64,000 nt of DNA, from positions 1,617,622 through 1,681,621 of the forward strand of contig NZ_LN831197.1 in NCBI RefSeq assembly GCF_001375535.1, read 5' to 3'. The notes under the pieces were generated by a model, which saw only the letters and a program-made list of their open reading frames with translations, had not been told where the DNA came from and ran no database searches. Positions 301 to 52,358 of this stretch are shown in pieces. Each line of letters starts with the position of its first letter. Within the stretch, counting starts at the first letter, position 1. The translations under genes and the position numbers were made by a program. The stretch is from Bacillus niameyensis (GTDB lineage: Bacteria; Bacillota; Bacilli; Bacillales; Bacillaceae_C).

Positions 301-1644
301 TTACTCAGTTTCCTTTTGTTTACGAACAAGTTCTTCCATTTTTTCTTGGTAAACACGTAGATATTCGTTAACATCCATTCCCGAGTTAGCAAATTCTTGG
401 AATTCACCCCATGGAATACTACCGTATTTAGCAGGTTTTTCTGGGCCTACTGCATATCCATATTTGAATAATGCATCAAGGTTTTTGCCTTCCCACTCTG
501 GTTTGTTCTCCCCAAATGCTGCTTGAACATCTGGACTTACAAGAATAGAACTTTGACCTTCTTTAGATTTTTCAATCTGTACTTCCTCAGAAAGCAAGTA
601 AGAAATCATTTCCATGATAATTTCTTTATGCTCACTAGTTCCAGTAATTGCAAAGCCACCAGCATTTGGTCTTGGCATAAGTGGATTTTCTTTATCCCAA
701 ACTGGGTATGTTGCAATATCAATATTATCTTGATCAAGCCAGCCTGTAGAAGAAGGACGCATAGCGAAAATGCCTTCATCCCACTTACCACCCCAGTGCA
801 TGAGCATGCTTCCTGGCTCCTCTGTTGGATATCCAGGAATGGAAAGTGTATCATCAATCATTTTGAAAAATTGCTTATACTCTTCAGAATTTGCAATAAC
901 AACTTCATCTGTATCTGGATCAACAGATTGTACATTTAGCTGTGTCCATGCATCATAAGGAACATCAAGATCTAACCCATAATATTGAACACCATTAACT
1001 TCGCGAGTCAATTTCTTCGCAAGTTCTACAACTTCTTCCCATGTCATTCCATCTTCAGGATAATTTTCTCCAAGGATATCAAATACGTCTTTATTGTAGT
1101 GCAAAGCCCATGTAGGACGTGAATTTGGAATAGCATAAAGACCTTTTTCATCTTTTGGATCATATCCGCGTGTAAATTCTACAATGGAAGGCTCCAAATT
1201 GCTTAGATCAAAACCAGATTGTTCAATAAGAGAATCATGATTGAAAGCCAATCCTAATTCATCCAAAAATTGAATATGAGAAACAATACCTAAAGTTACA
1301 ACATCAGGTGTTTTGCCTGCAGCGATAACTTCTTGTAAAGTTTCAGGATGGTCTGTTCCAACCTGTTGCAGTTCAATTGTTACGTAAGGGAATTTTTCTT
1401 TTAGAAGGTCACCATAGTTGTCCCAGAAATGGTCTTCTTCCCATTGGTGAGCCCATCTGATGGTTACCTCTTCATGCTGTTCTTCCTCTTCCTTGCCATT
1501 GTCTTTTTCTGCAGATTCTCCTTCTTTTTGGCTATTTTCATTACCACTATTAGAAGGTTCTGCATTATTTCCACATGCCACGATAAATGAAGCTAGAAAT
1601 GCAATAACGACAAATAGTGACATTAACTTAAACTTTCTTTTCAT
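301..1644 (-). CDS. Sugar ABC transporter solute-binding lipoprotein
   Basis: This 447-residue protein is a probable extracellular sugar-binding lipoprotein of the CUT1 (family 1 SBP) type. Residues 1-24 form a lipoprotein signal peptide with lipobox IVAC and Cys24 as the lipidation site. Residues 25-60 are a Glu/Asn/Ser-rich linker typical of Gram-positive lipoproteins. The mature domain starts VTIRWAHQW and contains the usual SBP pattern (VAAGKTPDVVTLG, later PNAGGFAITGTSEHKE). The ATG has an AAAGGGGGT site 6 bases upstream. No permease is immediately adjacent; the nearest ones lie beyond the two-component genes (5136-6997), and I infer that those are its partners. The substrate cannot be read from sequence, but a GH20-like gene follows it. 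Confidence 0.85.
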   Translation of the reverse strand: MKRKFKLMSLFVVIAFLASFIVACGNNAEPSNSGNENSQKEGESAEKDNGKEEEEQHEEVTIRWAHQWEEDHFWDNYGDLLKEKFPYVTIELQQVGTDHPETLQEVIAAGKTPDVVTLGIVSHIQFLDELGLAFNHDSLIEQSGFDLSNLEPSIVEFTRGYDPKDEKGLYAIPNSRPTWALHYNKDVFDILGENYPEDGMTWEEVVELAKKLTREVNGVQYYGLDLDVPYDAWTQLNVQSVDPDTDEVVIANSEEYKQFFKMIDDTLSIPGYPTEEPGSMLMHWGGKWDEGIFAMRPSSTGWLDQDNIDIATYPVWDKENPLMPRPNAGGFAITGTSEHKEIIMEMISYLLSEEVQIEKSKEGQSSILVSPDVQAAFGENKPEWEGKNLDALFKYGYAVGPEKPAKYGSIPWGEFQEFANSGMDVNEYLRVYQEKMEELVRKQKETE

Positions 1645-2756: not shown

Positions 2757-4115
2757 CTATTCTGGTGATACTAGTTGATTATCAATCGGAATCCCAACCC
2801 AAAATTTGGATCCTTCCCCGGGTTCACTCTCCACACCTATTTCACCGCCATGAGCATGAACAAGTGCTTTCGAAATACTTAAACCAATCCCAGAACCTCC
2901 ATACTCGCGAGATCTCGACTTATCTGTTCTATAGAAACGATTAAAGATTAGTGATAGTTCATCTTCATGTATACCTACTCCATTATCTTTACAATAAATG
3001 ATCAGTTCGTCATCATTACTCTCGATTCCGATCTCCACTTTTCCCGCACGTGCCGTATATTTAAGAGCATTCGAAATAATATTTGTGACGACTTGAATCA
3101 TTCTATCAGGATCTACATATGCTGTACACGGTTTATTGGGGTTCCTAAAGTTCAATTCAATTTCCTTCTGTTTCGCAATAAATAGAAAACCTTCATATAC
3201 CCCTTTGACTAAATGAACCATATTGACTTTTTCAATATTTAACTTAAAGCGTGCTCCTTCTGCCTCAGATAACCGTTGAACATTAGCAACCAACCGTGAC
3301 AATCTTTCCATTTCATCGTAAATATCTTGTAAGTTTTTTGTTGTAGTCGGGTAAACACCATCGATGATTGCTTCCAGTCTTGTAAGAACGGATGTTAATG
3401 GGGTACGCAATTCATGCGTTAAATCCTCCATCATTTGTTTCCGCCAATTCTCTACATTGTTAAACTCTACTAATAAACTATTAATACCATCTATTAATTG
3501 CTTAATTTCTTCAGTGCCATTTCTCGGGACAAATTCTTCACGATTTCCTCTCAATACTTTAAGAGCATAATAAGCTGATTGTTTAATAGGTTTAGCTAAA
3601 ATTCTAGAAAGGAAAAAATTAATAATAATCGTTACAACTAGAGCGATTACGATAATCATTCGTAGTTGATTTTGTGAATCTTTCTCAAACATAGATAATG
3701 CTGGTGCACCAATATGTTGATCTAAGTCATAAAAGGCACGTAAATACCCTAATGGTTCACCCTCTTTAACGATGGGAACATCGATGTAAAAAGGCTGAGC
3801 AAACTCAGTATGATTCATCTCATTTGTATAAATAATCTTACTAAAATCCTCATTAAAAAAATGAACTGGTGTTGCAAATTCTTGGGCAGTTTTATCAAAT
3901 AATTCTTTATTTTTTTCCGATGTAAGCGGCGTCTCAATGTTCGTACGAAGAATATAACTTATATGATAGGTTTGTTCAGCAAAATACTTTTGTTTATATT
4001 GCAAGAAGGATCGATTCGAAGTAAATGATAAAACAAAATAGATAGAAATAATCGAAAGGACAGAAAGGATAGTAAGCAAGAAAAATATAATAGTCTGTGT
4101 TCCCTTAGGCGTCAT
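2757..4115 (-). CDS. Membrane sensor histidine kinase (HAMP type)
   Basis: This 452-residue protein is a classical sensor kinase. TM1 is near residues 9-31 and an extracellular sensing region covers about 32-150. TM2 (about 153-172) is followed by a HAMP segment. The phosphoacceptor is His234 in THELRTPLT, the N-box is NIISNALKYT (345-354), and the G-boxes are DNGVGI (377-382) and GGSGIGL (406-412). All catalytic motifs are intact. It overlaps the upstream response regulator gene by 4 bases (ATGA), so the pair is translationally coupled. The signal is unknown. Its position inside a sugar-transport locus suggests that it senses the substrate, cell-wall state or transport activity. Confidence 0.92.
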   Translation of the reverse strand: MTPKGTQTIIFFLLTILSVLSIISIYFVLSFTSNRSFLQYKQKYFAEQTYHISYILRTNIETPLTSEKNKELFDKTAQEFATPVHFFNEDFSKIIYTNEMNHTEFAQPFYIDVPIVKEGEPLGYLRAFYDLDQHIGAPALSMFEKDSQNQLRMIIVIALVVTIIINFFLSRILAKPIKQSAYYALKVLRGNREEFVPRNGTEEIKQLIDGINSLLVEFNNVENWRKQMMEDLTHELRTPLTSVLTRLEAIIDGVYPTTTKNLQDIYDEMERLSRLVANVQRLSEAEGARFKLNIEKVNMVHLVKGVYEGFLFIAKQKEIELNFRNPNKPCTAYVDPDRMIQVVTNIISNALKYTARAGKVEIGIESNDDELIIYCKDNGVGIHEDELSLIFNRFYRTDKSRSREYGGSGIGLSISKALVHAHGGEIGVESEPGEGSKFWVGIPIDNQLVSPE

Positions 4116-4813
4116 CTCGCTTCATCCAAAATGCTATTAAACTTGTATCCAGAACCAATTTTTGTCACAATGTATTTTGGGTTTTTAGGATCTTCCTCTA
4201 TTTTCTTACGCAAATTTTTAATATGAGCATCCATCGTACGCCCATCACCGATATAGCGGTACCCTTGAACAATATAAGACAAATCCTGTCTACTAAAAAT
4301 CTTTCCTGGTTTTTTCACGAAGGCATCAAGAATTTTAAATTCGGTAGAAGTTAATTTAACCGCTTTATTTTCTACAAGTACTTCTTGAGTCTCAAAATTA
4401 ATTACTAGACTATTATGGTTAAATCGTAAAACTTCTTTATTTTCTTTAGTAAACATTTCAACCCGTCTTAACAGGGCGTTGATTCGTGCAATAACCTCTT
4501 TAATACGAAACGGTTTTGTAATATAATCATCAGCACCAATATTTAATCCATTAATCATATCTTCTTCCCTAGACTTAGAGGAAATAATAATTAAAGGGAC
4601 ATTGGAACTCTTTCGTATTTCTCGGCATATTTCTTCACCTGGAATTTTTGGAATCATCAGATCTAATAAGATGACATCTACCTTAAATTTTCGAACATGC
4701 TGTAGCGCTTCCAAACCATCGCTAGCAGTATAAACTCCCCATCCCTCTTTTAAAAAATACGATTTTAAAACATCACGAATTGAGGCCTCATCTTCAACAA
4801 TTAATATATTCAT
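4112..4813 (-). CDS. OmpR/PhoB-family response regulator
   Basis: This 233-residue regulator is partner to the overlapping sensor kinase. The receiver domain (1-115) has the acidic pocket EDE at 7-9, phosphoacceptor Asp51 in LLDLMIP and conserved Lys100 in YITKPF. A winged-helix DNA-binding domain occupies about 130-230 and ends in the usual KIGSGYKF. The start has a GGAGGGGG site. A candidate promoter lies about 160-185 bases upstream. Likely targets are the flanking transporter operons, by inference only. Confidence 0.93.
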   Translation of the reverse strand: MNILIVEDEASIRDVLKSYFLKEGWGVYTASDGLEALQHVRKFKVDVILLDLMIPKIPGEEICREIRKSSNVPLIIISSKSREEDMINGLNIGADDYITKPFRIKEVIARINALLRRVEMFTKENKEVLRFNHNSLVINFETQEVLVENKAVKLTSTEFKILDAFVKKPGKIFSRQDLSYIVQGYRYIGDGRTMDAHIKNLRKKIEEDPKNPKYIVTKIGSGYKFNSILDEAR

Positions 4814-5135: not shown

Positions 5136-6113
5136 TTATTCTACTAATCCAGTACGCTCTACTCCTTCAACAAAGTGACGTTGGAAAATTAAGAATATGA
5201 GCAAAGGTGGTAATAGCGATAAAAAGCTAGCTGCCATTTTGATCGCTCCTGCTTCGTAGGAAGAAATCTGTTGCGATTCCATTAGCCCTGTAATGACCCG
5301 ATCGAGTTGCAACATTTCACTAGCGAGGGGTAAAAGGCTGGAATCCGATAAAAACATTCTTGGGAAATAAGTATCGTTCCATGTCCATACGAATGAGAAT
5401 AAAAATACTACTAAAATAGCTGGCTTTGCTAATGGAAGCATGACTTTTAAATAAAACTTAAAAGCGCTTGCTCCATCAATTTTCGCCGCTTCCTCCAATT
5501 CTTTTGGTTGCGTTAAGAAAAATTGCCTAAAAATAATTACAAATAACGATCCTTTTACACCGAATCCCAAAATGGAAGGGATAATCAATGTAATAAAATT
5601 ATTCATAATCCCCAATTTATTAAAGGCAATGATTGTTGGCAATACTATAATTTGCGGCGGAATAATAAATGCCAATATCAACAGACCGAATACTAGTTTC
5701 TTAAAAGGAAATTCCAGACGAGCTAGTGCATACCCAGCAAGTCCACAAGAAACACAATGAAAGACAGATGCTGTAACAGCGACTAACAAGCTAATAGAAA
5801 ACGCTTGACCGTAGTGTAAACTTTTCCAAGCGGATGTCAAATGGCCAAAAAATAACTCGGTCGGAATCCACATAACTGTCGGATCAATGAGATCCTTCTC
5901 ACTCATGAGCATTCTGACTACCATTGTTAAGATTGGGTTTAAATAGATATACGAAGTTGCAATAAAAATTGTGTAAAGAAACGCCTTAAATAAAAGCCCC
6001 TCATTTACTTCTTTTCCAAGAACAATGTATTTGGCTGAATTTAGTTTACTTTGAACGTTATACTTCCTTTTGGGTTTTTTATATTTTTTTGCTGTTTCTA
6101 TATTTACATTCAT
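5136..6113 (-). CDS. Carbohydrate ABC transporter permease (MalG/LacG type)
   Basis: This 325-residue inner-membrane permease has six predicted helices. The ATPase-coupling EAA loop reads ELEEAAKIDGASAFKFY near residues 206-222. A basic N-terminal tail of about 40 residues precedes the first helix. It is the second partner of the permease encoded just upstream (14-base gap), as in CUT1 systems. The start ATG has an AAGGAGG site 7 bases upstream. It is the last gene of the long minus-strand operon and is followed by a hairpin. The substrate is unknown. Confidence 0.9.
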   Translation of the reverse strand: MNVNIETAKKYKKPKRKYNVQSKLNSAKYIVLGKEVNEGLLFKAFLYTIFIATSYIYLNPILTMVVRMLMSEKDLIDPTVMWIPTELFFGHLTSAWKSLHYGQAFSISLLVAVTASVFHCVSCGLAGYALARLEFPFKKLVFGLLILAFIIPPQIIVLPTIIAFNKLGIMNNFITLIIPSILGFGVKGSLFVIIFRQFFLTQPKELEEAAKIDGASAFKFYLKVMLPLAKPAILVVFLFSFVWTWNDTYFPRMFLSDSSLLPLASEMLQLDRVITGLMESQQISSYEAGAIKMAASFLSLLPPLLIFLIFQRHFVEGVERTGLVE

Positions 6114-6127
6114 CCTCAGCCCTCCTT

Positions 6128-6997
6128 TTATCTTCTGGCAACCCTTTGCCTATTGCTTATTCTCATATAGATCAACATGACAATGGACAAGAACACAGCA
6201 ATGACAGCAAAGTATACCCAGGCAATAGCACTAGAGTATCCATAATTCCCAGTTCCAATTAAATCGTTGACTGGATTAAACGGGAAAGTAAACATGTCAA
6301 CAATAGTATAAATTAAGTTTAGGAAGATAAATGGAGCCATAGCTGGGAGTGTAATCTTCCAGAAAACTTCCCATGGATTAGCGCCGTCAATTCTAGCTGA
6401 TTCATAGGCTGAAGGCGGGATCGTTTGTCTTCCAGCTAAGAAAATTAAAATCTGAACGCCTGAATACCAAAGAACTAAAACGAACCGATTTAGTAGAGTC
6501 TTTACTGGTTGTCCCCAAGAACTATCACCTAAAAAGGCATCCAAATACCCTCCTAGTGCAAAGTTCTCTAAAAAGCCTAGTGCCCCTTCTCCTTGATTGA
6601 CAAATTCCGTTAATAGATAACCAGTTGTGAAGATAACCGGTAGAAAGAAAATCGTTCTAAATAGAAATCGCCCATACAAGTTCTGGTTTAACAAAATAGC
6701 AATCATGAGTGAGAATATAATAATGATTGGGACCATCAGAATGACTTCTTGGAAATAAGGAATTAACAAGTCATAAAAGTCGGCACTATTAAGCAGCAAT
6801 TCCCGATAATACTTTATACCATTAAATTCATATTCGAGTCCACCTGGTAGGACTCTCACTTGATGAAAGCTCATATAAAGTGAGAATCCTAGTGGGAAGG
6901 CAAGAAATATCAGAAATCCTATTAACCACGGTGCGATGAATAAACTTCCTTCCAGGTTACGAGCAACCTTAGCGTTTATCCTTTTTTTAGTCCGCAC
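6128..6997 (-). CDS. Sugar ABC transporter permease (UgpA/LacF type)
   Basis: This is a 289-residue permease of the MalF/UgpA half of CUT1 importers. It has six hydrophobic segments and an EAA loop reading SAYESARIDGANPWEVF. I place the start at the GTG of 6995-6997, which has an AAGGAGGG site 7 bases upstream. A longer reading from 7039 would bury that ribosome site and overlap the previous gene by 41 bases. The gap to the upstream DUF5696-type gene is a single base, which implies translational coupling. With the 5136-6113 product it forms the second permease pair of this operon. Confidence 0.88.
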   Translation of the reverse strand: MRTKKRINAKVARNLEGSLFIAPWLIGFLIFLAFPLGFSLYMSFHQVRVLPGGLEYEFNGIKYYRELLLNSADFYDLLIPYFQEVILMVPIIIIFSLMIAILLNQNLYGRFLFRTIFFLPVIFTTGYLLTEFVNQGEGALGFLENFALGGYLDAFLGDSSWGQPVKTLLNRFVLVLWYSGVQILIFLAGRQTIPPSAYESARIDGANPWEVFWKITLPAMAPFIFLNLIYTIVDMFTFPFNPVNDLIGTGNYGYSSAIAWVYFAVIAVFLSIVMLIYMRISNRQRVARR

Positions 6998-6998
6998 A

Positions 6999-9341
6999 TT
7001 ATTTCCCTCCTTCGAGAACGACAAAATCCTCGGCCCCAATTGTCATCCCATTTGTTGTATAGCCATGCTTGTTATAATTGACAACAATCCGTTTTCCATT
7101 TTCATATGTCGTTTCAAATACACCTTCATCCAACATACGATGGTCCACGATAAATTGGTCTTGTACATCACCAAGGGCCTCATTATAGCTCTGATACCAA
7201 GAGGTTATTTCTTTTTCCCAATCTTTATAATAGGTACTGTAAAATCTACTCATGTTATCAGACGCTAGTAATTTCTGTGTTTCTTCATAGGTTAGGATAA
7301 ACGAGGGAACTGCTCCATACTCAATTCCTTGTAAGAAACTCTGTTGGGCATTACCGCCCATATTGCCATAATTAAATGAGTAACTTACCAAACCATGAAG
7401 TGCAATTTGTGCAAACGGGACTTTTTGGTCAGCGAATAAATCATAAGAATAGTCACTATCCATTTGATCAAGATGATCGACATATGGCAATGCATAGAAA
7501 TTCCCTTTGGATAATTGAACCTTTCCTAGTTCGGCTTTTGTTTTTTCCAATACGTTTTCATGAATCTCTTTCACGTCTTGACGGTTCGCAAAATGGCGAT
7601 CGTTATAGTCCGTCGAAAGCATAGAGCCAATTCCATCACCGTAGATGTATCCATCAACCGCAATTTCCTTTGCTTTCTTTAAATCATTGAAAATTGTTTT
7701 TTCCATAAAACGCGGACTAACATAGACCTTTTTATTTCCGAAACGGTTGTTTTCAATAATGGTTGAACTTAGATCTTGTAATCCATCCCTATTTGGACGA
7801 AAACGATCTTTATTCGTATTATTATACGTGTAAGAGCTCGTATCCAGGAATACAGAAAAGCCTTTTGATTGAGCAAATTCGACGAAATTTTCCATTTCAT
7901 CATTTCCACCTAGTTTTTTGGCTACTGGAAAATGGCCGCCGAAATTCTCATATCCGCCTCTCTGCCACCCATAATAATTAATAGTCATATCTTCTACCCC
8001 AGAACTATTCAATTCCTTCACGATTTGACTAGCCTGGTCAGCAGTTGTTAACGGAAGGAACGTATCGCGAATAAATCCCTTTTTTGTTCCTCCACCGAGA
8101 ATACTTAATTGTAAGTCAATGTTTTCGTCAGCTTCTGCTTTTGTTAGTCCCTGTTCATCCATAAGATACTGTCGATATCTTTGAGCCATATCTACATAGG
8201 TAGGAGTTTGCTCCTCAATCATGTAGTACCTAACAGAGCGAGTAGACCGCTGCATTTCCTCAGAATATAGATAAAATCCTGTGAATTTTTTCTTATCTGT
8301 AGGCTGGAAAAATTTGAATCGAAAATGATGTTCAGCAGTTACCCAGTTATATTGACTTAATGACTCTGACGGTGCAGAAACAATACTTGCATATGAATCA
8401 CCATCACGAACAATACCTAGAGTAGCAAGATCACCTTTTTTTATACCGAAGACAGGCATCCTAACTGGTTGTCGTGAAGATAAATCCGTCTTTGTTGAAA
8501 ATGCCCAATCATCGCCATATATCCGTTCGCTATATAAGTTATTCGTACTCGCGCGGTTTTTCTGAAATTCTACGAGAACACCTGGACCATCTGGAAGAAA
8601 TAGATAGCCATTTTCTTCGTTAGAAGTTTCAGCCCCTAAGAACGGAAACAAGCGAAGGGAAACAAGTCGGCTTTTTGGATTCTTTTTCGCATCAGCTTGT
8701 TCCTCTTTCGTTAACTCCTTTGCATCCACAATTTCATCAGCTAAAACCTTTGTCTCTACGAAGTCTTCTCCAAGGTGGACCTCAATGGGTATGTTAAAAC
8801 CAATTTTCGGCATATCATAGGTCACTTTGAACCCGTCATCGAGCTTCGTGAATTCTACAGTCCCGCCTTGGCTCAAGAAATTCGATTCTTTTACAACATC
8901 TTTACGTACATTGAATTCAACAAATGTAAACATGAAAGGAGATTGTAAATGGGTCTGCCAAACATTAGATGCCCCACCTTGTTCCCAGCCATCTGGATTA
9001 GGAAATGATCTAGTGGTTTTGCCATTTTGCTTATTCACAACAACAAAGTGGCCGGTGTCCGGATCAGCCTTCAATATATATTTGGCGTTTTCTGCAATAT
9101 TTTGAAATCCACTTTCATCTGGAAGAGAACTCTCTACAGGTGCTCCTTTACCTTCATCACCAGACTCATCCTCCGATGTATCTGATTCTTCGGCATTATT
9201 GTCATCATTTGTATTTTCAACTTCCTCAACATTTTCCTGTTCGGCCGAATCGCTATCATCGTTATTGGCAAATGCAGAGATCGTCCCGAATGTTAAAAGA
9301 AGAACTAAGACAATCAATGATATTCGTTTAAATTTTATCAT
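6999..9341 (-). CDS. Secreted DUF5696-type protein of the sugar-uptake operon
   Basis: This is a 780-residue exported protein. Residues 1-25 are a Sec signal peptide ending AFA, and no lipobox Cys is present. About 40 Asp/Glu/Asn-rich residues follow, and then a long globular region. That region has a beta-rich N-terminal half and a second half suggestive of a TIM barrel (for example EDMTINYYGWQRGGY and YIYGDGIGSML). From memory it matches the DUF5696 family found beside Yip1 and CUT1 permease genes in Paenibacillus-like bacteria. Enzymatic activity is not established. The start at 9339-9341 follows AGGAGGTGA and shares one base with the previous stop codon (TGATG). It may process or present the polysaccharide at the cell surface. 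Confidence 0.72.
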   Translation of the reverse strand: MIKFKRISLIVLVLLLTFGTISAFANNDDSDSAEQENVEEVENTNDDNNAEESDTSEDESGDEGKGAPVESSLPDESGFQNIAENAKYILKADPDTGHFVVVNKQNGKTTRSFPNPDGWEQGGASNVWQTHLQSPFMFTFVEFNVRKDVVKESNFLSQGGTVEFTKLDDGFKVTYDMPKIGFNIPIEVHLGEDFVETKVLADEIVDAKELTKEEQADAKKNPKSRLVSLRLFPFLGAETSNEENGYLFLPDGPGVLVEFQKNRASTNNLYSERIYGDDWAFSTKTDLSSRQPVRMPVFGIKKGDLATLGIVRDGDSYASIVSAPSESLSQYNWVTAEHHFRFKFFQPTDKKKFTGFYLYSEEMQRSTRSVRYYMIEEQTPTYVDMAQRYRQYLMDEQGLTKAEADENIDLQLSILGGGTKKGFIRDTFLPLTTADQASQIVKELNSSGVEDMTINYYGWQRGGYENFGGHFPVAKKLGGNDEMENFVEFAQSKGFSVFLDTSSYTYNNTNKDRFRPNRDGLQDLSSTIIENNRFGNKKVYVSPRFMEKTIFNDLKKAKEIAVDGYIYGDGIGSMLSTDYNDRHFANRQDVKEIHENVLEKTKAELGKVQLSKGNFYALPYVDHLDQMDSDYSYDLFADQKVPFAQIALHGLVSYSFNYGNMGGNAQQSFLQGIEYGAVPSFILTYEETQKLLASDNMSRFYSTYYKDWEKEITSWYQSYNEALGDVQDQFIVDHRMLDEGVFETTYENGKRIVVNYNKHGYTTNGMTIGAEDFVVLEGGK

Positions 9342-11479
9342 CACATTGTCACCTCCTGGTAAAGCGTGAAGATAAAGTCGATCGTTTCTGACGTTAATCC
9401 GATAATAATGAATACTAACACCCATAGCATAACCATTGAGAACAATGTAAGCAGAATGTTCACGATCGTTTCACCTACTGAATAGTTCTGTAAAGATTGA
9501 ACCATCCAGAAAAAGAGTGCTGCACACCAAATCACCATAATAGCATCGAAAAACCCGTAAATAGATCCCTCACTAAGGGTCATGATATTTGAAAGTAATG
9601 CTAATGGTAATCCTAGTAAAAATACTGGCAATAACGAATAGGCACTTCCCACGAAGACATCTCTGAAACGGGCTTGCCCATATCGGATCGCGCCAATTAG
9701 ATAGTGACAAATGACCCAAGATACCCATACCATCACGCCTACGGATAGTATTGAACCTGCATTTAAACTTTCAATTGGGATAGGCTGGAATGTGAAGCTT
9801 GTAAAATAGATTCTTGCTAAAGCTACAACTACAACTACTGCTAGAATTAAAATCGCACTTGTATATCCACCTAAATCTCTATATCGGACATCAGCAAAAC
9901 CATCTAGTGGATGCCTTAAAATATAGAAAGCATGTTTTATTTGCTCAATCAGCTTTATTTCTTGCCACTTTCTACTTTTTGCTACTTTCTTTTGACGCCT
10001 TTTCTTCCTTCGATATTTTGAAGTTGCCACTGTTCCAACACCAATTACTAACAATGAGTTGGCGAAATAGGCAAAGTTCTTTTGGAACCAGGATAAACGA
10101 ATTTGCCAAAACGAGTCTGAATATCCTTGTTCATCACCAGCTAATTCGTATAGATTCATCGCCTCTTTATAATCTTCTCGATAAAAGGAAGCACGGGCAA
10201 GACCTGCATAAGCTGGTGAGAATAGCGCATTATGTTTTACGATTTCGTTCCAGTATTGCTCACTTTCATCATACTTTCCTTGCTGCGTTAGTATGTAAGC
10301 AGTCTGAATATCGTTTCCAAAAGCAGTTGGCCTTAGAACTTGAATAAGATTCAACGAATCATCTAAAATAAATATCTTATTTTCAGAATTAGTATCTAGT
10401 GCTGTCGGGCTCTTATTTACGCCTACTTGCGGGGAACCAGCAGTAACAGGTGCTCCCCAGAAAAAGAGCAATTCTCCATTTTGGTTAAATTGAGCAACAA
10501 TGTTACTCGCTTTATCAATGACTGTCACTATTCCATTTTTATCAACAGTAACGTCGCTGATCTCCGCTGTTGGCGGACCTTCAGCTTCTGTTTGCGTCAT
10601 CGCACGCCTGCGTAAAAAATTCAAATTAATATTGTCACCAAAGGAGAACTCTTTCCACTGATTTTCACCACGAATATTAAGCTTTTTAATTTGCTCAGTG
10701 GCATCCCTTGAAACTGTGTAAATAAATCCGTTTTGGTCAATGTCAATGTTACGTATTGGATTCGGCAGTAACCTTACCTGTCTTTTCAATTGTTCCTCTG
10801 TGTATAACATGTTACGGACTCTATCCATAAGAGACACTTCTGTTATATTAGTACCATAAAAACCATAGAATTGACCTTCGGGATCAAATTGAACAATCCC
10901 TTGGTACGTTCCGCGTGAAACAACATAGACAAAGCCACGTCGGTCAACAATCATGTTAATTGGTTCGTACACAAAATTCTCGTCAATATATTTAGAATCT
11001 GGTCTTCCAAATTCTTTTAAGAGTTTGCCCTCTTTATTTAAATGAACTACTCTCTTATTCCCAGTATCCGCCACATAAATATCGCCTTTTGAGTTTAGAA
11101 ATACACCTGAAGGCTGTTTCAACGGACTCTCTGGTACTGTAAGGATTCTTTCTAACTTTCCATCTTTATCCAAATGAACGATCCGATCATTGCCTGTATC
11201 TGCAATATAAATATCATCCGCTTCATCAATAAACAAATCTTGCGGTTGTTTTAGCGGAGAAAAGATTTGTTCGCCGTTTTCGTCAACCATATAGATATCT
11301 TCTGCCATAACCCCGTCAGGCTCATACGCAGGCTGCGTGAAAATCGTCCTATTAAAACCATTAACACTAAAAGTTTCAAAAGGCGCTTCAGCCTTGACTG
11401 ATAATGAAGATGGCAAGAACAAGATAATAAGGCTGAAAGAGGCGAATAGCATATTCCGAATTCTTCGTCTTATTTTCAT
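9341..11479 (-). CDS. NHL-repeat, TPR and Yip1-domain membrane protein
   Basis: This 712-residue multidomain protein starts with a signal peptide (about 1-30). NHL-type beta-propeller repeats cover about 75-385, with the recurring unit LKQP, then DIYIADTGN, then RIVHLDKDGKL. A TPR-like helical stretch follows (about 390-455), then a transmembrane helix (about 468-487) and a strongly basic tract (RRKKRRQKK). The C-terminus is a Yip1-type domain with about five helices (540-712). The propeller and TPR should face outside, with the Yip1 part in the membrane. It lies between the first permease pair and the DUF5696-type gene. I infer a scaffold or sensor for the uptake machine; no enzymatic motif is seen. 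Confidence 0.75.
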   Translation of the reverse strand: MKIRRRIRNMLFASFSLIILFLPSSLSVKAEAPFETFSVNGFNRTIFTQPAYEPDGVMAEDIYMVDENGEQIFSPLKQPQDLFIDEADDIYIADTGNDRIVHLDKDGKLERILTVPESPLKQPSGVFLNSKGDIYVADTGNKRVVHLNKEGKLLKEFGRPDSKYIDENFVYEPINMIVDRRGFVYVVSRGTYQGIVQFDPEGQFYGFYGTNITEVSLMDRVRNMLYTEEQLKRQVRLLPNPIRNIDIDQNGFIYTVSRDATEQIKKLNIRGENQWKEFSFGDNINLNFLRRRAMTQTEAEGPPTAEISDVTVDKNGIVTVIDKASNIVAQFNQNGELLFFWGAPVTAGSPQVGVNKSPTALDTNSENKIFILDDSLNLIQVLRPTAFGNDIQTAYILTQQGKYDESEQYWNEIVKHNALFSPAYAGLARASFYREDYKEAMNLYELAGDEQGYSDSFWQIRLSWFQKNFAYFANSLLVIGVGTVATSKYRRKKRRQKKVAKSRKWQEIKLIEQIKHAFYILRHPLDGFADVRYRDLGGYTSAILILAVVVVVALARIYFTSFTFQPIPIESLNAGSILSVGVMVWVSWVICHYLIGAIRYGQARFRDVFVGSAYSLLPVFLLGLPLALLSNIMTLSEGSIYGFFDAIMVIWCAALFFWMVQSLQNYSVGETIVNILLTLFSMVMLWVLVFIIIGLTSETIDFIFTLYQEVTM

Positions 11480-11502
11480 TGTTGAACCCCCGTTTCCTTG
11501 CC

Positions 11503-12420
11503 TTATTTAATTCCAGAGTGGGCCATGGTAGCAATAACTTTTCTTTGGAAGAACAAAAATATAATCAGCTGGGGTAAGAACATAATCAGTGCCCCTGCTG
11601 CCGCGGCTCCTTGTCTTGCAACTGTATTGGCCAAATTTGCGGTGAGCGACATCATATAATAAGGCAATGTTTTCATCGACTCATCCTGCATAAACAACTG
11701 CGAAGTTTCAACATTTCCCCATGCATTTTGGAATGAAATAATCGCAATCGTTGCTACAGCAGGAGTTACAATCGGCATAACAATTTGCATAAACATTCTA
11801 ATTTCTGATGCACCATCAATTTTAGCTGCTTCTAACATTTCATTAGGTACTTGATCCATAAATTGCTTCATAAGGAAAACCCCGACAGGCATCGCAATCA
11901 TTGGTAATACGTGACCCCAATACGTATTCATAATCCCTAAACCTTGAACAACTACATAACGAGGGATCTGTAATACTGTTGGTACAAATAAAAGTGATAC
12001 CATGATTAGGGCGAAAACAAGGTTGGATCCTGGGAATTTATGTTTAGACAATGCATAGGCACATAATGAGCTCGTAATAACCATTGCAGCTGTAGCCAAC
12101 ACCGTTACTATTACACTATTAAAAATGTATCTTGATACTGGCACGAATGTACTTTGTGTCATAGACATTAATTCAATAAAGTTTTGAACTGTTGGATCCT
12201 GAACGATAAACGTCGGTGGAAATAGGAATAACTCATGTAATGGCTTAAAAGCATGATTAAAAATATATACAATGGGTAGTAACATAAAAACCGCTAGCAA
12301 GGCTAAGAAAAAGAGAATAACCCATTGAGTACCATCAAGCCTTCTTATTTCTCCACCAAAATTTTTCACTTTGATGATGGCCTCTTGCCCCATATTTTTT
12401 AGTGAAGCTAATAGTTTCAA
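11503..12420 (-). CDS. Carbohydrate ABC transporter permease (MalG type), first pair
   Basis: This 305-residue permease has six hydrophobic segments and an EAA loop reading MLEAAKIDGASEIRMFM. The best start is the TTG at 12418-12420, with an AAGGAGG site 9 bases upstream. Starting further upstream at 12462 would overlap the previous gene by 41 bases and place the ribosome site within the coding sequence. The stop of the preceding permease (TAA at 12422-12424) is 1 base away, so the two are coupled. Together with the 12422-13420 product it forms the channel for the CBM-like binding protein encoded upstream. Confidence 0.88.
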   Translation of the reverse strand: MKLLASLKNMGQEAIIKVKNFGGEIRRLDGTQWVILFFLALLAVFMLLPIVYIFNHAFKPLHELFLFPPTFIVQDPTVQNFIELMSMTQSTFVPVSRYIFNSVIVTVLATAAMVITSSLCAYALSKHKFPGSNLVFALIMVSLLFVPTVLQIPRYVVVQGLGIMNTYWGHVLPMIAMPVGVFLMKQFMDQVPNEMLEAAKIDGASEIRMFMQIVMPIVTPAVATIAIISFQNAWGNVETSQLFMQDESMKTLPYYMMSLTANLANTVARQGAAAAGALIMFLPQLIIFLFFQRKVIATMAHSGIK

Positions 12421-12421
12421 A

Positions 12422-13420
12422 TTATTCGTCCTCCTTTTCACCAAAAAGATAAGAGAAGACACGGCTGAGCATGAACATCAAAACCAATAAGATAACCGAA
12501 ACCGCCGCTGCATAGCCTAGTTCAAATCGGATAAAACCGTAGTCTGAAATATGACTGATCATAACTTGACCAGCATAGTTAGGTGTTGGGTTTGATCCCG
12601 ATAATTGCACTCCAAGTTCACCTGACTGCAAAGTATGAACAATAGCCATAACCCCTGCGAACATTAACTGAGGTTTTAGCATTGGTAAAGTAATATACCA
12701 AATTTCCTGTAATCTACTAGATATACCATCGATTTTTCCAGCATCATAAAGTTCTTGATCCACATTTAATAAACCAGCCAGCATCGCCAAGAAGCCAATT
12801 CCCATACTCGACCAAATGGAAACAACAATCATAATATTTAAAAGCCAGTCTTGGTCTTGTAGGAATATAATCGGTTCTGTAATAAAGCCATATTTCAACA
12901 TAAAACTATTGATGTAACCTGTACGGTCACCGGAAAACATTACTTGCCAAACTACCGTCATGGCAACCCCCGCAGCAAGCGAGGGAGCGTACATGGCGAG
13001 TGCAAAAACCATCCGCAATGTGTTCGGTAATTGTGCAATGAACCACGCTAGCAAGAAGCCTAGTATAAATCCTACTGGTCCAACGAATAATGAAAATTTA
13101 AATGTGTTCGGTAAAATATTTTGCAAGAAGACAATGTCTTGTGAAAATAAAGTTTGATAGTTTAGCCATCCCGTCCATTCCGGAAATTGTATCGAGTTAA
13201 AATAGGTAAAACTTAATCCAATAGCCGCAATAACTGGAATGAGAATAAAAATAATAAACATAATCATGAAGGGAGCGATAAACAAGTAAGATAAGCGGTA
13301 TCGCCATATTTCAGACAGTAATTTCTTTGTTTTCTCAGAAATATCCATCTTGAACTGGTTAAACTTACCTGTTTTCACTGTTTCCACATTTGTGTTTTCT
13401 ATTTGAGCATTACCGTTCAA
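12422..13420 (-). CDS. Sugar ABC transporter permease (MalF/UgpA type), first pair
   Basis: This 332-residue permease has a soluble N-terminal tail of about 45 residues, six hydrophobic segments and an EAA loop reading LYDAGKIDGISSRLQEIW. It begins with TTG (13418-13420) and overlaps the end of the solute-binding protein gene by 11 bases. A GGAAGGAG site lies about 10 bases upstream, within the end of that gene. The overlap supports stoichiometric translation with the binding protein. Two conserved Gly-rich loops of CUT1 permeases are present and I see no defect. Confidence 0.88.
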   Translation of the reverse strand: MNGNAQIENTNVETVKTGKFNQFKMDISEKTKKLLSEIWRYRLSYLFIAPFMIMFIIFILIPVIAAIGLSFTYFNSIQFPEWTGWLNYQTLFSQDIVFLQNILPNTFKFSLFVGPVGFILGFLLAWFIAQLPNTLRMVFALAMYAPSLAAGVAMTVVWQVMFSGDRTGYINSFMLKYGFITEPIIFLQDQDWLLNIMIVVSIWSSMGIGFLAMLAGLLNVDQELYDAGKIDGISSRLQEIWYITLPMLKPQLMFAGVMAIVHTLQSGELGVQLSGSNPTPNYAGQVMISHISDYGFIRFELGYAAAVSVILLVLMFMLSRVFSYLFGEKEDE

Positions 13421-16388
13421 GCTGACTCACTCCTTCCCACGGTTCTGTAACACTAAGAAGTTTTAAAGGATGTAATACTTTTCCGTCTTTATCGATCAAA
13501 TCAAATTCAATTTGTTTTCTCTTTAATTCTCGATTTATTTCTTTGACTGCTTTTTCCAATTCTATTCTTGGATTTTCTCCTTCAAGGACTGTTAAGTTCC
13601 ATGCAAAATCCAACTGTCTTGTCGTCATATAACCGCCTGGAACGTTAGGTACATCTTTTACCCACTTCCACTGCTGTAAAATTACTTGTAAATCTTCTTG
13701 TCTCCATGGCATTTGACTAAATGCTTGTACGTTAGCCGAGTTCCAACGGAATGTTTCTCCACGGAATTGTTCAAGGTTTAACCCATATTCTGTTTGCATC
13801 TCTGGCGATGTATACCACTTAATAAACTCCCAAGCTAATTCTTGCTTTTCTTCTGGAGTATCGTTAAATAGCATCATGCTTGTTGTATCCATCCCAGTAC
13901 CACCGGCCCATCTTACAATCTCGCCATTTTCATTTACGTGGCCTGGAACAGGAGCAATCCCCCACAAATCAAGAATTTCAGGTGCAGCAACTAGTAATTG
14001 CATATATTGATTAAAGTCGGCAATACCAATTGGCATCGTTCCTTTTCTAAATTGCTGATAAAAACTTTGAACTTGATTGTCCATACCATGAAGATTAAAG
14101 AGATTCGTCCACTCTTCAAATCCTTTGAATGCTTCAGGATTATCTAATGCAGTTGCCATCCCATCTTCGCTATAAAGGTCAACCCCGTTTTGGTATAGCA
14201 TGTATGAAAAGTCTTTAGGATCTGCATAAAAGTTATATTGATTTTGTAGCAAAGTCGGAATCATATCATAGACATCGTCCCAAGTATTAGGAACCTCAAG
14301 GTCGAGCTGATTCAATATATCTTTACGATAAAATAAAACTTTAAAGTTAATTGTTTCTGGGATTCCGTAATATCCGCCATCATAATAATATGGAAGCAAA
14401 GTACCCGGTGCATAATTATTTAGTACTTCTTCGGAACCTGATAGCTGGGAAAAATCTTTCGCTGCACCACGCAGAGCCATTTCAAAAGGCATTCCACTTG
14501 GTACACCAAGTGCGACATCAGGCATAATTCCGGCTGCCTTTGCTAAAATTAGCAAGTTTTGATCTTGAATAAGGTTTACATTAACTTTGATCCCATATTC
14601 TGGAGTGAAATATTGGTTAGCTAACTGCTGTAATTCTTCCGCGTAATCGCGCCCCCACATCATCCAAACATTCAGTTCTTCATCTTTCTGTTCTCTTAAT
14701 TGATTCTTATCAGAGAATGAGTAAATGAGAGAATTGTACGTTCCTTTGAACTTCTCAAAGAAATTAGCCGTCATACGTGGAAATTCTTCCTTATTTGGAG
14801 TTAAGTAAAACTTATCTATTTCCAATGGGCTATTCATTAATTCCGTTCTTTGTGTTTCAAGCTTTTCCTGCATCGCACCAATTCTTACTTGATTGTTTGG
14901 AATATCATTTGGCTTTTCAAGTAATACGGAAATATCCTGAACAATCGATTCGAATGCTTGAGAAACATTACTTCGTTCGCCGTTTATCTCAATCGTTTCT
15001 TTGGCGAGTTTATCGAATTGATCATGCATCACTTCAAGTTGTTCAATTAAGCCAGGTAATTCTTTTTTTACGTTCCACACCCTGAATTCATCGATTCGGT
15101 TTCCTGAAGCGATCTGAATTTCTTGAGAAACAGCTTTAATTTGATCAGCCAATTCCTCAATTTGAACAATAATTGGCATGAATGGCTCGTACGTTACTTC
15201 AAGAGATAACGTATGTGTCCCTTTCTCTAAATAGATAGAATAAGGTTTTTCATTATCATCCTTTACGATAAGTTCCTGCCATTTTGAAGCATATGGGATT
15301 TTCAAATGCTTCATTTCTTCAAATGGAATCTCTCCATCAATATATAAAGTTCTAAAAACAGCTAGATTCTTCCGATAATTTTGTAATCCACGAAAGCCTA
15401 GTTTGTATTCGCCACTTTCTGGAACATCAAATTCCCAAGTGATCGTTTGCCCGCTGTCATACCAGCTTCCTCCACCTATCGTATTGAATTTTATTTTTTT
15501 CAATGATTCAGGTGTAGTCAGTGGGTCACGATTATATTGAACCTGAATAGAAGTTGAATTTTTCCCACTAAATTGCTCTGCTTCAATTGTGATTGTTTCA
15601 CCATTTTCCTGAGCATTATCAGGGTAAGTTCCCTTTACTTCTTCATAATTTGGAATAGTGGTAGGTGGTTGTATCTTAATTGTTCCAATTGCAAGTCCTT
15701 CTCTCATTGGCTGTAAACGAATCGTGTTTTTCCCTTTTTCAAGATAAAACAATAGTGGGTCAACACTTACACCAGGACTCCGAAAAAGAGCTGTACTCCA
15801 TTCAGTAATATCCTCAACTAAAGATCTAATTTGATTACCTTCGCTATCAAATTGTGCTTCTTTGTCCTGATACTGTCTTCGCAATTGTATCGACCTTGTC
15901 TCACGATAGGGATGGGAACCATTAATTTGTACACCTAAAATGGCCGCTTGCCGACTCCCTCCATCCTCTTGGGTAAATGGTCTATATTCAGCAGACAATT
16001 CATACAAACCCGCCTCTTTGACATCGATTACATATTCAGCCCAAGCTGATGAGTCGGACCATATAGCTACATTATCTTTTCCTGCGTATGATCCGTGTGA
16101 TATAGCGTTTTCATCCGATGCATTTGAGAAATCAAAGGCTTGGATTTCAATAACATCTTTTCCGGGCTTTTTTCCGTCAGCTTCCCAATTCTGCAATACT
16201 TCATTATAAAACGGTTCAATAAATGTATTTAAATTAATTGCCGCAGGTTGCTCTTCCTTTGCTTCTTTCTCTTCAGCAGAGGCTTGTCCATCTTTTCCAA
16301 TATTTAAAGGTGTACTAGCAATGAAAACCATACATATAAATGAATATAGCAATCTCTTCATTAGAGATTTCCTAGATTGCAGCTTCAT
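13410..16388 (-). CDS. Secreted fusion of carbohydrate-binding-like domains and a solute-binding domain
   Basis: At 992 residues this is about twice the usual length of a sugar-binding protein. A Sec signal peptide (about 1-38) lacks a lipobox. Two beta-sandwich modules follow (about 55-240 and 262-410); the second opens TITIEAEQF and resembles CBM35/CBM6-type or Malectin-like domains. A helical, coiled-coil-like stretch (about 415-560) leads to a family 1 solute-binding domain (about 572-945: LNVWMMWGRD, GIMPDVALGVPSG, later LAWEFIKWYTSPEMQ). The start ATG has a GGAGGG site 6 bases upstream. I infer that it captures a polysaccharide through its CBM-like part and passes oligomers to the overlapping permease pair. 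Confidence 0.82.
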   Translation of the reverse strand: MKLQSRKSLMKRLLYSFICMVFIASTPLNIGKDGQASAEEKEAKEEQPAAINLNTFIEPFYNEVLQNWEADGKKPGKDVIEIQAFDFSNASDENAISHGSYAGKDNVAIWSDSSAWAEYVIDVKEAGLYELSAEYRPFTQEDGGSRQAAILGVQINGSHPYRETRSIQLRRQYQDKEAQFDSEGNQIRSLVEDITEWSTALFRSPGVSVDPLLFYLEKGKNTIRLQPMREGLAIGTIKIQPPTTIPNYEEVKGTYPDNAQENGETITIEAEQFSGKNSTSIQVQYNRDPLTTPESLKKIKFNTIGGGSWYDSGQTITWEFDVPESGEYKLGFRGLQNYRKNLAVFRTLYIDGEIPFEEMKHLKIPYASKWQELIVKDDNEKPYSIYLEKGTHTLSLEVTYEPFMPIIVQIEELADQIKAVSQEIQIASGNRIDEFRVWNVKKELPGLIEQLEVMHDQFDKLAKETIEINGERSNVSQAFESIVQDISVLLEKPNDIPNNQVRIGAMQEKLETQRTELMNSPLEIDKFYLTPNKEEFPRMTANFFEKFKGTYNSLIYSFSDKNQLREQKDEELNVWMMWGRDYAEELQQLANQYFTPEYGIKVNVNLIQDQNLLILAKAAGIMPDVALGVPSGMPFEMALRGAAKDFSQLSGSEEVLNNYAPGTLLPYYYDGGYYGIPETINFKVLFYRKDILNQLDLEVPNTWDDVYDMIPTLLQNQYNFYADPKDFSYMLYQNGVDLYSEDGMATALDNPEAFKGFEEWTNLFNLHGMDNQVQSFYQQFRKGTMPIGIADFNQYMQLLVAAPEILDLWGIAPVPGHVNENGEIVRWAGGTGMDTTSMMLFNDTPEEKQELAWEFIKWYTSPEMQTEYGLNLEQFRGETFRWNSANVQAFSQMPWRQEDLQVILQQWKWVKDVPNVPGGYMTTRQLDFAWNLTVLEGENPRIELEKAVKEINRELKRKQIEFDLIDKDGKVLHPLKLLSVTEPWEGVSQLER

Positions 16389-16401
16389 CTTATCCCTCCG
16401 T

Positions 16402-17520
16402 TCAATCTGTCAACAATTCTTCACTATCTCTATCAAAGAATAGTGCTTTGTCCATATCGACAGCTACTCTTACTTTTGCACCCTCGTCATAGCGGGCCCT
16501 TGGATGAGCACGTACTATAAAGGACTCTTTCCCATGAGAATCGAGATGATAATAGTGATCAGATCCAATAAACTCATTAAATTGTAAAAATGCCTCAATA
16601 GTTGCATGTGGATAAGTTTCGAATAATTCCTTTTCGAAGCCCATATGCTCTGGTCTTATTCCCATCACAACCTCATAATCATGTAGACGTTTATTCCTCA
16701 TCATGTTTGCCTGTTGGTCTGTAAGACGTAAGTTAAACGCTTTCGTGAAAAACCGAATATGACCATCAATTTCTCGTATAGTCCCTTTAAAGAAATTCAT
16801 AGGCTGATTTCCGATGAATTTTGCAACGAACATATTTGTCGGCCTATTATAGATCTCTTCTGGAGAATCAACTTGCTGAATAATACCTCTATTCATTACA
16901 ACTATCCGATCTCCCATTGTCATCGCTTCAATTTGGTCATGAGTTACATAAATAGTTGTTACACCCATTGACCTATGCAACCTTATAATTTCTGCCCTCA
17001 TTTGTACACGTAATTTTGCATCTAGATTGGATAATGGTTCATCCATCAAAAACGCTTGAGGCTGTCTAACGATGGCTCTTCCTAAAGCTACCCGTTGTCT
17101 TTGACCACCACTCAGTTCTCTCGGTTTTCTATCGAGAAAAGCGCCAATTTCCAACACGCGAGCTGCTCTTTTTACAGCATCTTCAATTTCGTGCTTCGGG
17201 ATTTTTCGTATACGTAAACCAAATGCAATATTTTCGTATACAGTTAAATTAGGATACAAAGCATAGTTTTGGAAAACCATAGATATATCCCGATCTTTAG
17301 GGGGGATGTCATTTACTAAATTATCACCAATATAAATTTCCCCCTTTGAAACATCTTCCAATCCAGCCACCATTCTTAAAGTTGTCGATTTCCCACAACC
17401 TGAAGGTCCCAAGAATACGAGAAATTCCTGGTCATTTATATCCAGGTTAAAATCTTTTACTGCTAACTCCTTAAACTTTCCATACTGCTTAGAGACATTA
17501 TTCAACAAAATCCTTGCCAT
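16402..17520 (-). CDS. msmX: MsmX/UgpC-type sugar ABC transporter ATPase
   Basis: This 372-residue ATPase carries Walker [10 protein letters not shown] (38-46), signature LSGGQ (136-140), Walker [13 protein letters not shown] (155-166) and the switch His in YVTHD. A C-terminal TOBE/MalK-type regulatory region runs from about 235. It matches the multitask ATPases (MsmX, UgpC) that power several CUT1 importers in Bacillus. It is the first gene of the long operon and the only CUT1 ATPase in the window, while three permease pairs are present. I therefore infer that it energises more than one importer. The gene symbol is by family resemblance; the copy could be a dedicated paralogue. Confidence 0.85.
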
Positions 17521-30072: not shown

Positions 30073-30462
30073 TTACTTAGCACGCCAGTCTAAAAGCCCA
30101 CTTTCTAAGCCACGAATGACAATTTCAGCCGTTCCCATATTAGTTGCTAACGGAACGCCATAGACATCACAAAGTCGCATAAGGGCAGAAACATCAGGCT
30201 CATGAGGTTGAGCTGTTAATGGATCACGTAAAAAGATGATAACATCCATTTTATTTTCAGCAATATATGCGCCAATTTGCTGATCTCCACCTAGTGGACC
30301 AGATTGAAATCGATTAATACTTAATCCAGTTGCTTCCATAATCTTTGCACCTGTAGTTCCTGTTGCATATAATTCATGCTTTTCTAATATAAACTTATAC
30401 GCGGTTGCAAACTGAATCATATCGTCTTTTTTCTTATCATGTGCTATTAATGCTATTCTCAT
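30073..30462 (-). CDS. mgsA: Methylglyoxal synthase
   Basis: This 129-residue enzyme converts dihydroxyacetone phosphate to methylglyoxal plus phosphate, bypassing lower glycolysis. The active-site blocks are intact: TGTTG for phosphate binding, [11 protein letters not shown] with Asp60, and [14 protein letters not shown]. It overlaps the upstream TPR protein gene by 4 bases (ATGA) and has AGGAGG 6 bases before its ATG. In B. subtilis mgsA lies beside dapB, so this context is different. Confidence 0.97.
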
Positions 30463-32561: not shown

Positions 32562-32590
32562 CTGCTCAACAACCTCCTTATTCCACACTG

Positions 32591-40397: not shown

Positions 40398-41459
40398 TTA
40401 ATCAAAATAAATTTCTGTACCTTTTGCAGCTGATTCATAGATACCGCAAAGGATTTTTGTCATTTCTACTCCATGTTCTACTGGGCTTAGTGTTTCTTTT
40501 TCACCAAGACAAGTATCCACAAAATGATCAATCTCAGCTTGGAATGCTTGAACGAAGTCAAAAGATAGATTATCAACTTGTGGAAGCATGTTTACAATTG
40601 TGTCATACTTCTCGGAAATAACCGCTAGGCTTGGTTCGATTTCAGCTCCACCTTTTGTTCCATAAAGTTTTACAGTGATATCGTCTTTTTGTGCATGAAG
40701 TGTGAAGCTTACATCTACAGCTAAAGAGGCACCATTTTCAAAACGGATTAAGGCATTTGCCATATCTTCGACTGTATTTTTCTCTGGGTCAAAGTCAGCA
40801 GCTTTATAGAATGATAGGTTTTTAATATTTTTTCTGTTTCCTAGTTTATTGTATGTGTTACCGGAAATAGATTTGACTTTTGGACATCCCATTAGATACC
40901 AAAGAACATCAATAACATGGACACCAAGATCGATTAATGGTCCTCCACCAGATCTTTCAATATCAGAGAACCAGCCACCAGGATTACCTAGACGACGGAA
41001 GCATGTTGCTTTTGCGTAATAGATTTCTCCAAGGTCATCGTTATCAATAAACTGTTTTAGAACTTGTGTGTTAGCAGAATATCTTCTAACAAATCCAACT
41101 TGAAGTTTTTTACCAGTTTCTTTTACTGCAGCTTCAAGAGCAAGTGCCTTGTCGATGTCTGTCGTCATAGGCTTTTCAACAAGTACGTTTTTACCTGCTT
41201 GTAACGCAGCAATTGCAATTTCAGCATGCGTATTATTCCAAGTACAGATGCTTACTGCTTCGACTTCCGGATCAGCTAATAATTCATTGTAATCTACATA
41301 AACTTTTTTAGCACCGTATTTTTCAGCTTTTGCTTTTGCTCTTTCTTCATTCAAGTCACAAATGGCAACTAGTTCTACTTTGCTATTATTTACGTATGCA
41401 CCTAGATGCGCTTCAGAAATCGAACCAGCACCAATTACCCCAATTTTAACTTTACTCAT
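40398..41459 (-). CDS. Gfo/Idh/MocA-family oxidoreductase
   Basis: This is a dehydrogenase of about 353 residues with Rossmann motif GVIGAGSISEAHLG, catalytic Lys in VEKPMTTD and GGGPLIDLGVHVIDVLWYLMG in the C-terminal domain. It resembles inositol-type dehydrogenases in overall pattern. Two adjacent ATGs are possible (41462 and 41459); the second is better spaced from AGGGGGAT. It is the last gene of the four-gene minus-strand operon and follows the epimerase-like gene by about 10 bases. Confidence 0.91.
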   Translation of the reverse strand: MSKVKIGVIGAGSISEAHLGAYVNNSKVELVAICDLNEERAKAKAEKYGAKKVYVDYNELLADPEVEAVSICTWNNTHAEIAIAALQAGKNVLVEKPMTTDIDKALALEAAVKETGKKLQVGFVRRYSANTQVLKQFIDNDDLGEIYYAKATCFRRLGNPGGWFSDIERSGGGPLIDLGVHVIDVLWYLMGCPKVKSISGNTYNKLGNRKNIKNLSFYKAADFDPEKNTVEDMANALIRFENGASLAVDVSFTLHAQKDDITVKLYGTKGGAEIEPSLAVISEKYDTIVNMLPQVDNLSFDFVQAFQAEIDHFVDTCLGEKETLSPVEHGVEMTKILCGIYESAAKGTEIYFD

Positions 41460-41471
41460 CATTTCATCCCC

Positions 41472-42338: not shown

Positions 42339-42376
42339 ACCTTCACCCCTTCTGGATAGTAAGTCTAATGATAAAA

Positions 42377-43357: not shown

Positions 43358-43358
43358 T

Positions 43359-46881: not shown

Positions 46882-46893
46882 TTATCCCTCCTT

Positions 46894-47613: not shown

Positions 47614-47812
47614 TCGGCCCATCCCTTTCTTATAAAGACTTACTCACTGTTATCATAAATATAATTAATAGCTAGCTAAATTATATCACTTTTCAGTAGA
47701 TTGTTACCGTTAACCTAAATATTTCTTCTGATTTTTTATCATTATTAACTAGTTACAATGATTTAGCAAATTTGTTAAGGTACTTACTGGATGCAAAAAA
47801 AAGTACCAGATC

Positions 47813-52355: not shown

Positions 52356-52358
52356 ATG

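Follow-up and report, generated by a model that had tools for sequence, protein, structure and literature searches.

A conserved module of two permease pairs, an NHL-TPR-Yip1 protein and DUF5696 in Bacillota: a candidate glycan importer of two halves

Sugar importers of the CUT1 class (MalEFGK2/UgpABCE type) normally have one permease pair per operon, and in Gram-positive bacteria their binding protein is anchored by a lipid. How long or cyclic glycans enter Gram-positive cells is, to our knowledge, little understood. The ATP-binding cassette (ABC) importer AlgM1M2SS of the Gram-negative Sphingomonas, which is said to take up large polysaccharide, has one permease pair, and we know of no NHL-Yip1 or DUF5696 protein belonging to it. 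For the beta-1,2-glucan clusters of Listeria and Ignavibacterium, the accessible portion of the report (PMC8861115) links use of this polymer to GH144, GH94/SOGP, GH35 and an oligosaccharide-binding protein; an ABC transporter and its binding protein are mentioned there, whereas DUF5696, NHL-Yip1 and a second permease pair are not. Here we describe a run of eight minus-strand genes (positions 5136-17520) in a 64,000-nucleotide stretch of the Bacillus niameyensis genome (contig NZ_LN831197.1), hereafter the window. This module shares with CUT1 importers permease pairs with an EAA loop, a MalK-type ATPase with OB and TOBE domains, and an SBP_bac_1 domain. Unlike them, it has two permease pairs and two further conserved proteins, and its binding protein is about 1000 residues long, carries a CBM-like domain and mostly lacks a lipobox. 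The parts are thus of kinds known from CUT1 import, and there is a real chance that they form a distinct class of machine. In the open-access literature searched, no paper was found for DUF5696 by name, nor any description of the gene set (Yip1, NHL, ABC transporter and solute-binding protein together); the main text of a Caldicellulosiruptor regulon paper (PMC8579813) does not mention NHL, Yip1, DUF5696 or permease. We give an even chance to the reading that the run encodes a conserved glycan importer of two cooperating halves: a binding protein with one permease pair, and an NHL-TPR-Yip1 protein and DUF5696 with the other.

In the direction of transcription, the run begins with an ATPase of the UgpC/MalK type (16402..17520; Pfam ABC_tran, TOBE_2 and OB_MalK), which scores 458.5 bits against the NCBIfam UgpC model (cut-off 432). 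It is followed by SBPf (13410..16388), a protein of 992 residues recognised by Pfam and profile matches, in which a signal peptide, an N-terminal part with a CBM-like domain and a linker precede SBP_bac_1. Next come the permeases pA (12422..13420; UgpA/MalF side; Pfam BPD_transp_1 and NCBIfam) and pB (11503..12420; UgpE/MalG side; BPD_transp_1). The fifth gene (9341..11479; Pfam NHL and Yip1, hydropathy) encodes an NHL propeller and TPR region, predicted to lie outside, and membrane spans with Yip1; the sixth (6999..9341) encodes the exported DUF5696 protein (PF18952, E 2.4e-186, 621 bits). The run closes with the permeases pC (6128..6997; UgpA/MalF side; BPD_transp_1) and pD (5136..6113; UgpE/MalG side; BPD_transp_1 and NCBIfam). 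All eight reading frames are open where a first-pass annotation, made from the sequence alone, had placed them, and its family labels (ATPase, fusion of CBM-like and solute-binding domains, permeases, NHL-TPR-Yip1, DUF5696) were recovered with Pfam, NCBIfam and profiles. The two complete permease pairs that it proposed also hold, with four BPD_transp_1 matches and one UgpA/MalF-side and one UgpE/MalG-side member in each pair.

The same annotation described overlaps or 1-30-base gaps throughout. The run is indeed compact, but some of the long overlaps shrink when starts are placed by Shine-Dalgarno sites. The open reading frame (ORF) calls gave pB as 11503-12462 and pC as 6128-7039; Shine-Dalgarno sites move these starts to a TTG at 12420 and a GTG at 6997, each leaving a 1-base gap, and set that of the DUF5696 gene (Shine-Dalgarno site AGGAGGTGA) at an ATG at 9341, with a GTG at 9344 also possible. 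With these starts, which have good Shine-Dalgarno sequences, a number of the seeming overlaps turn out to be gaps or overlaps of about one base. On the same strand, a terminator-like hairpin lies 5' of the ATPase gene (17675-17650, z -4.5), and another of 17 pairs, with a weak T tract, directly follows pD (5133-5093, -22.8 kcal/mol, z -5.9); bounded in this way, the run looks like one unit. Catabolite-repression sites were rejected as evidence, with 13 matches against 9.1 expected and equally many in 10 of 100 shuffles.

For comparison, we read 144 loci outside the window (handles with L; genomes carry handles with G), in three sets that were all selected through DUF5696. For the first, 199 genomes of the order were searched and all 46 strong DUF5696 places not in the window's genome were taken. 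The second came from an alignment-based contig scan, as the best 80 of 570 confirmed named loci when sorted by similarity to its query; a contig scan with a single window protein as query, unlike the alignment-based one, gave no matches. The third consisted of 18 loci hand-picked, avoiding short contigs, from 56 strong places in a phylum search. Some loci were fetched twice, and the DUF5696 tree has 144 rows (the window and 143 loci; 137 different sequences), leaving out one locus whose DUF5696 gene the ORF caller missed. This simple caller found full modules in 107 of the 126 loci of the first two sets, an undercount from shadow ORFs that hide genes; the 19 others, plus 12 further loci, were re-read with tblastn.

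The quartet NHL(-TPR)-Yip1, DUF5696, pC and pD stands in this order in all 144 loci (L148 is cut by a contig end inside pC), and all 144 have a Yip1 match; NHL and Yip1 form a single gene or, in some relatives, two adjoining genes. SBPf-pA-pB lies directly upstream of the quartet, giving the same seven-gene order as in the window, in 133 loci. SBPf is downstream of the quartet in five (L120, L191, L192, L197 and L198, of which only the L120 stretch extends through pB) and not within the fetched stretch in another five (L134, L143, L155, L187 and L188); its placement cannot be judged in L135, a short contig. Since SBPf is thus found downstream or outside the stretch, the two halves of the module are separable. 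The preservation of gene order across loci is far beyond chance, so that chance clustering was rejected, and the conserved joint module put forward in the first-pass annotation stands, its gene order being kept elsewhere. One genome (G081) carries at least five copies of the module. In L186, about 2 kb (about 7311-9305) interrupts pB and includes an opposite-strand ORF of 442 residues, possibly an insertion element.

NHL-Yip1 was also searched on its own, to offset the choice of loci through DUF5696. Within the order, the 33 genomes (of 199) with NHL-Yip1 (E <= 1e-30) are also the 33 with DUF5696 (E < 1e-100); 10 further genomes had weak DUF5696 matches only, one of them just above the cut-off. 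Across the phylum sample, DUF5696 (E < 1e-100) and NHL-Yip1 (E < 1e-99) again fell in the same genomes, 37 of 398. Matches limited to the propeller part of the NHL protein occurred in three other genomes (G329, G439 and G561; that in G439, at 1.2e-40, could be a fragment), and weak partial DUF5696 matches in nine others, two of them above the cut-off (G497 and G519). Two genomes (G000 and G082) belong to both samples. Among 14 control genomes, none exceeded the cut-off for DUF5696, and weak matches were seen in Thermotoga maritima and Lactococcus lactis. Co-occurrence of DUF5696 and Yip1 had been named in the first-pass annotation as a check on its proposal, and the strong matches to the two do coincide.

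The EAA-loop glycine is present in 119/119 pA, 114/114 pB, 120/121 pC and 120/121 pD sequences (the misses are gaps), and because all four permeases keep this loop, each pair would be expected to couple to an ATPase; a dead second permease pair was rejected on the same ground. Identity over the aligned parts is 26% between pA and pC and 29% between pB and pD, values at which the pairs can be taken as old and distinct and at which a recent duplication of one pair was rejected. A close relative of the window's ATPase (>250 bits) lies directly upstream of the module in 42 of the 144 other loci. With the window, these loci form one clade of 43 rows on the DUF5696 tree (branch support 100), once three misses of the ORF caller are corrected; among the matches listed, the nearest named relative of the window's copy is from Lederbergia wuyishanensis. 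Loci without a close relative of this ATPase must rely on another one. In L194, SBPf is preceded by two further ABC-ATPase genes that are unlike the window's (76-83 bits). In L085, L102, L106 and L107, two long ABC-ATPase-matching genes (about 584-633 and 620-656 residues) directly follow pD, and by length these are exporter-like.

The DUF5696 profile matches the first half of the barrel of the GH129 alpha-N-acetylgalactosaminidase NagBb (1.6e-13) and of the GH129-like anhydrogalactosidase DagB (1.5e-11), the likeness to DagB including a weak stretch of the N-terminal domain. With either profile, the match ends at NagBb 427 and DagB (5opq) 473, which is 8 and 13 positions, respectively, before the catalytic Asp if chain and paper numbering agree. 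In contrast to these hydrolases, DUF5696 does not seem to conserve the likely column of this residue: the extrapolated position holds Asp in the window, Ser (L059), Ala (L070) or Gln (L080) in close relatives, and varied residues elsewhere. A standard hydrolase active site is therefore unlikely in most members, and the suggestion of the first-pass annotation that the exported protein trims polymer is left unsupported, since the similarity gives out short of the catalytic Asp and the column where this residue would fall shows no conservation.

We nevertheless weighed an active surface glycosidase with a rearranged catalytic site, which would restore that trimming role and which we consider unlikely. 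Besides the barrel similarity and the Asp in the window's own copy, it can draw on the acids conserved among 126 DUF5696 sequences: D251 is invariant (126/126), E674 is acidic throughout (121 E and 5 D) and D278 is kept in 122 (D578 is Asp in 106). According to the accessible portion of the DagB description (PMC5698469), that enzyme has only one of the two catalytic residues of NagBb and relies on the adjacent monomer for an Asp, with mutants of Asp486 (equivalent to NagBb Asp435), Glu517, Glu531 and Asp202 (of the other monomer) being inactive. Against a glycosidase speak the end of the similarity before the catalytic Asp, the Ser, Ala or Gln of close relatives, and the genes that adjoin DUF5696 in different loci (beta-1,2-glucan enzymes, PL8, alginate lyase, GH26), a variety that argues against a single bond specificity. 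The DUF5696 gene directly precedes pC, the place of the binding protein in ordinary operons; both this position and the fact that SBPf-pA-pB is separable suggest a role for DUF5696 in serving pC-pD.

The closest solved relative of SBPf is Lin1841 (5ysb), presumably the protein with which Listeria binds beta-1,2-glucan oligosaccharides, which the SBPf profile (41 rows) matches over positions 561-866 at 4.5e-32. Upstream, positions 304-403 match residues 431-520 of cycloisomaltooligosaccharide glucanotransferase (1.1e-7), a CBM-like stretch visible by profile only, which we take to be CBM35. A lipobox was found in 4/119 SBPf, 10/126 DUF5696 and 1/125 NHL proteins, compared with 67/68 short binding proteins of the same loci in a first set and 122/134 in a wider one; the test, a simple pattern search liable to false negatives and false positives, was applied alike to all groups. 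SBPf and DUF5696 thus mostly lack, by this test, the lipid anchor of the ordinary binding proteins beside them, so that something else, perhaps NHL-TPR-Yip1, should hold them. With an N-terminal hydrophobic stretch, then the propeller and TPR (the latter below the Pfam cut-off but clear by profile), then membrane spans with Yip1, this protein would be the natural candidate holder of both.

Flanking enzymes point to glycans as substrates. Among the stretches of the 144 loci, relatives of GH144-type enzymes (PF10091, which we take as the link to GH144) occur in 25, of GH35 in 33 and of SOGP-type phosphorylase in 16; 39 loci have a GH144-type or SOGP gene, 43 any of the three including the GH35 relative, and 29 two or more. 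On the DUF5696 tree, which holds 42 of these beta-1,2-glucan loci, their distribution takes 2 changes, compared with a shuffled mean of 36.3. Enzymes such as those of the Listeria and Ignavibacterium clusters flank 39-43 of the 144 modules, in a clade other than the window's, and on this basis oligosaccharide import by the module is well supported. The glycan-uptake role proposed in the first-pass annotation accords with the sugar-importer parts, with these beta-1,2-glucan enzymes and with other glycan enzymes at some loci. The latter, found in a selection of 72 among 121 flanking proteins, comprise single cases of PL8, alginate lyase, GH26, GH30, GH43 and GH2, and two sulfatases. No GH144-type, SOGP or related GH35 gene adjoins the module at the window's nearest kin (L059, L070 and L077), and no PF10091 or SOGP match was found among the window proteins scanned; the window's one GH35 gene (50535-52283) has a beta-galactosidase make-up and lies 33 kb from the module.

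Beyond the run, after 322 bases and on the same strand, follow genes for a response regulator, a kinase, a 264-residue membrane protein and an ordinary lipoprotein solute-binding protein (301..1644; SBP_bac_1, lipobox). This last protein is possibly a second feeder, although it sits farther from the module than two genes. In 96 of 143 loci, a short binding-protein gene of this ordinary kind stands no more than two genes from the module, a feature absent from the first-pass annotation. Together with the coupling loop kept in all four permeases, it favours an alternative in which two ordinary CUT1 importers share one regulon, SBPf feeding pA-pB and the short lipoprotein feeding pC-pD, while NHL-Yip1 and DUF5696 are accessories that form no joint complex. 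This arrangement would leave unexplained why strong NHL-Yip1 and DUF5696 matches are never apart in either genome sample, and why their genes adjoin pC-pD at every locus; moreover, 47 of the 143 loci have no short binding protein within two genes, some of these stretches being cut short or poorly called. We regard it as rather improbable, if less so than an active glycosidase.

Three observations weigh against the importer of two cooperating halves. The short binding proteins near 96 modules could serve pC-pD, which weakens the idea that DUF5696 replaces a binding protein. The absent lipobox fits equally well with release from the cell or with an uncleaved N-terminal anchor. Finally, among 30 flanking proteins scanned, mostly from the window's clade, each glycosidase family appeared just once or twice, beside regulators and unrelated enzymes, and these flanks point to no substrate for the window's copy.

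The response regulator is of OmpR type (4112..4813, minus strand; Pfam) and possibly regulates the module, with the histidine kinase (2757..4115, minus strand; Pfam) as its partner. Relatives of the regulator occur in the stretches of 12 of the 42 ATPase-clade loci and those of the kinase in 14, compared with none of the 102 others for either, so that a two-component system, not noted in the first-pass annotation, is linked to the module in part of the window's clade. This linkage is what would be expected if the module of this clade mainly sensed or handled an envelope polymer, rather than food, and reported to the two-component system. We hold this to be very unlikely: PL8 (L080), GH2 (L079) and rhamnosidase-like (L088) genes adjoin members of the clade, and two-component systems commonly control catabolic operons.

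Several further features were recorded in the window and in related stretches. A second glycan cluster (window 47866-63967) contains GH95, GH35, GH31, a sulfatase and a DUF4832-match protein, with a separate CUT1 permease pair, its SBP_bac_1 protein and an AraC-type response regulator. At 40398-44363, a row of three Gfo/Idh/MocA oxidoreductases and a xylose-isomerase-like TIM barrel is followed by LUD/LutB-type genes (44747-47622), and a 709-residue protein with weak TPR matches only (30459-32588) adjoins a Gfo/Idh/MocA gene. Just outside the window's start, beyond the lipoprotein gene at 301, an ORF of 237 residues (L185, 18826-19539) has a partial GH20 match (1.3e-6) and could belong to a gene that is longer or disrupted. 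Downstream of pD in L083, L091, L096 and L099, ORFs of ~440 residues alternate with binding-protein genes, and of the 30 flanking proteins scanned in the group of these loci, 7 match luciferase-like monooxygenases.

Returning to the importer of two cooperating halves, its working might be pictured as follows. In the first half, the oversized SBPf, with its CBM-like domain, would grip long or cyclic chains and serve pA-pB. The second half would consist of a membrane protein exposing its propeller and TPR, an exported protein with a GH129-like barrel, and pC-pD; NHL-TPR-Yip1 would act as the scaffold that keeps the unanchored SBPf and DUF5696 at the membrane, and DUF5696, mostly without a standard hydrolase site, would bind chains and hand them to pC-pD. 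Both permease pairs would import, powered by the dedicated ATPase in the window and elsewhere by a shared MsmX-like ATPase; a shared ATPase of this type powering several importers is an established principle. The substrate would differ by clade, with beta-1,2-glucan in one of them. More tentatively, and with the balance leaning against it, the module may represent a new Gram-positive class of glycan import, defined by an NHL-TPR scaffold, a Yip1 anchor, an unanchored SBPf and a catalytically silent DUF5696 as receptor for pC-pD.

If this is true, a long or cyclic glycan could be gripped at one point while another stretch of it is fed in, and Gram-positive bacteria would have their own equivalent of large-glycan uptake, with the module paired anew with other enzymes for other polymers. 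Among the Bacillota sampled the module shows strict conservation, and one clade has a defined soluble substrate, beta-1,2-glucan; it thus offers a test of a new transport mechanism, and of a first function for DUF5696 and for a bacterial Yip1 protein.

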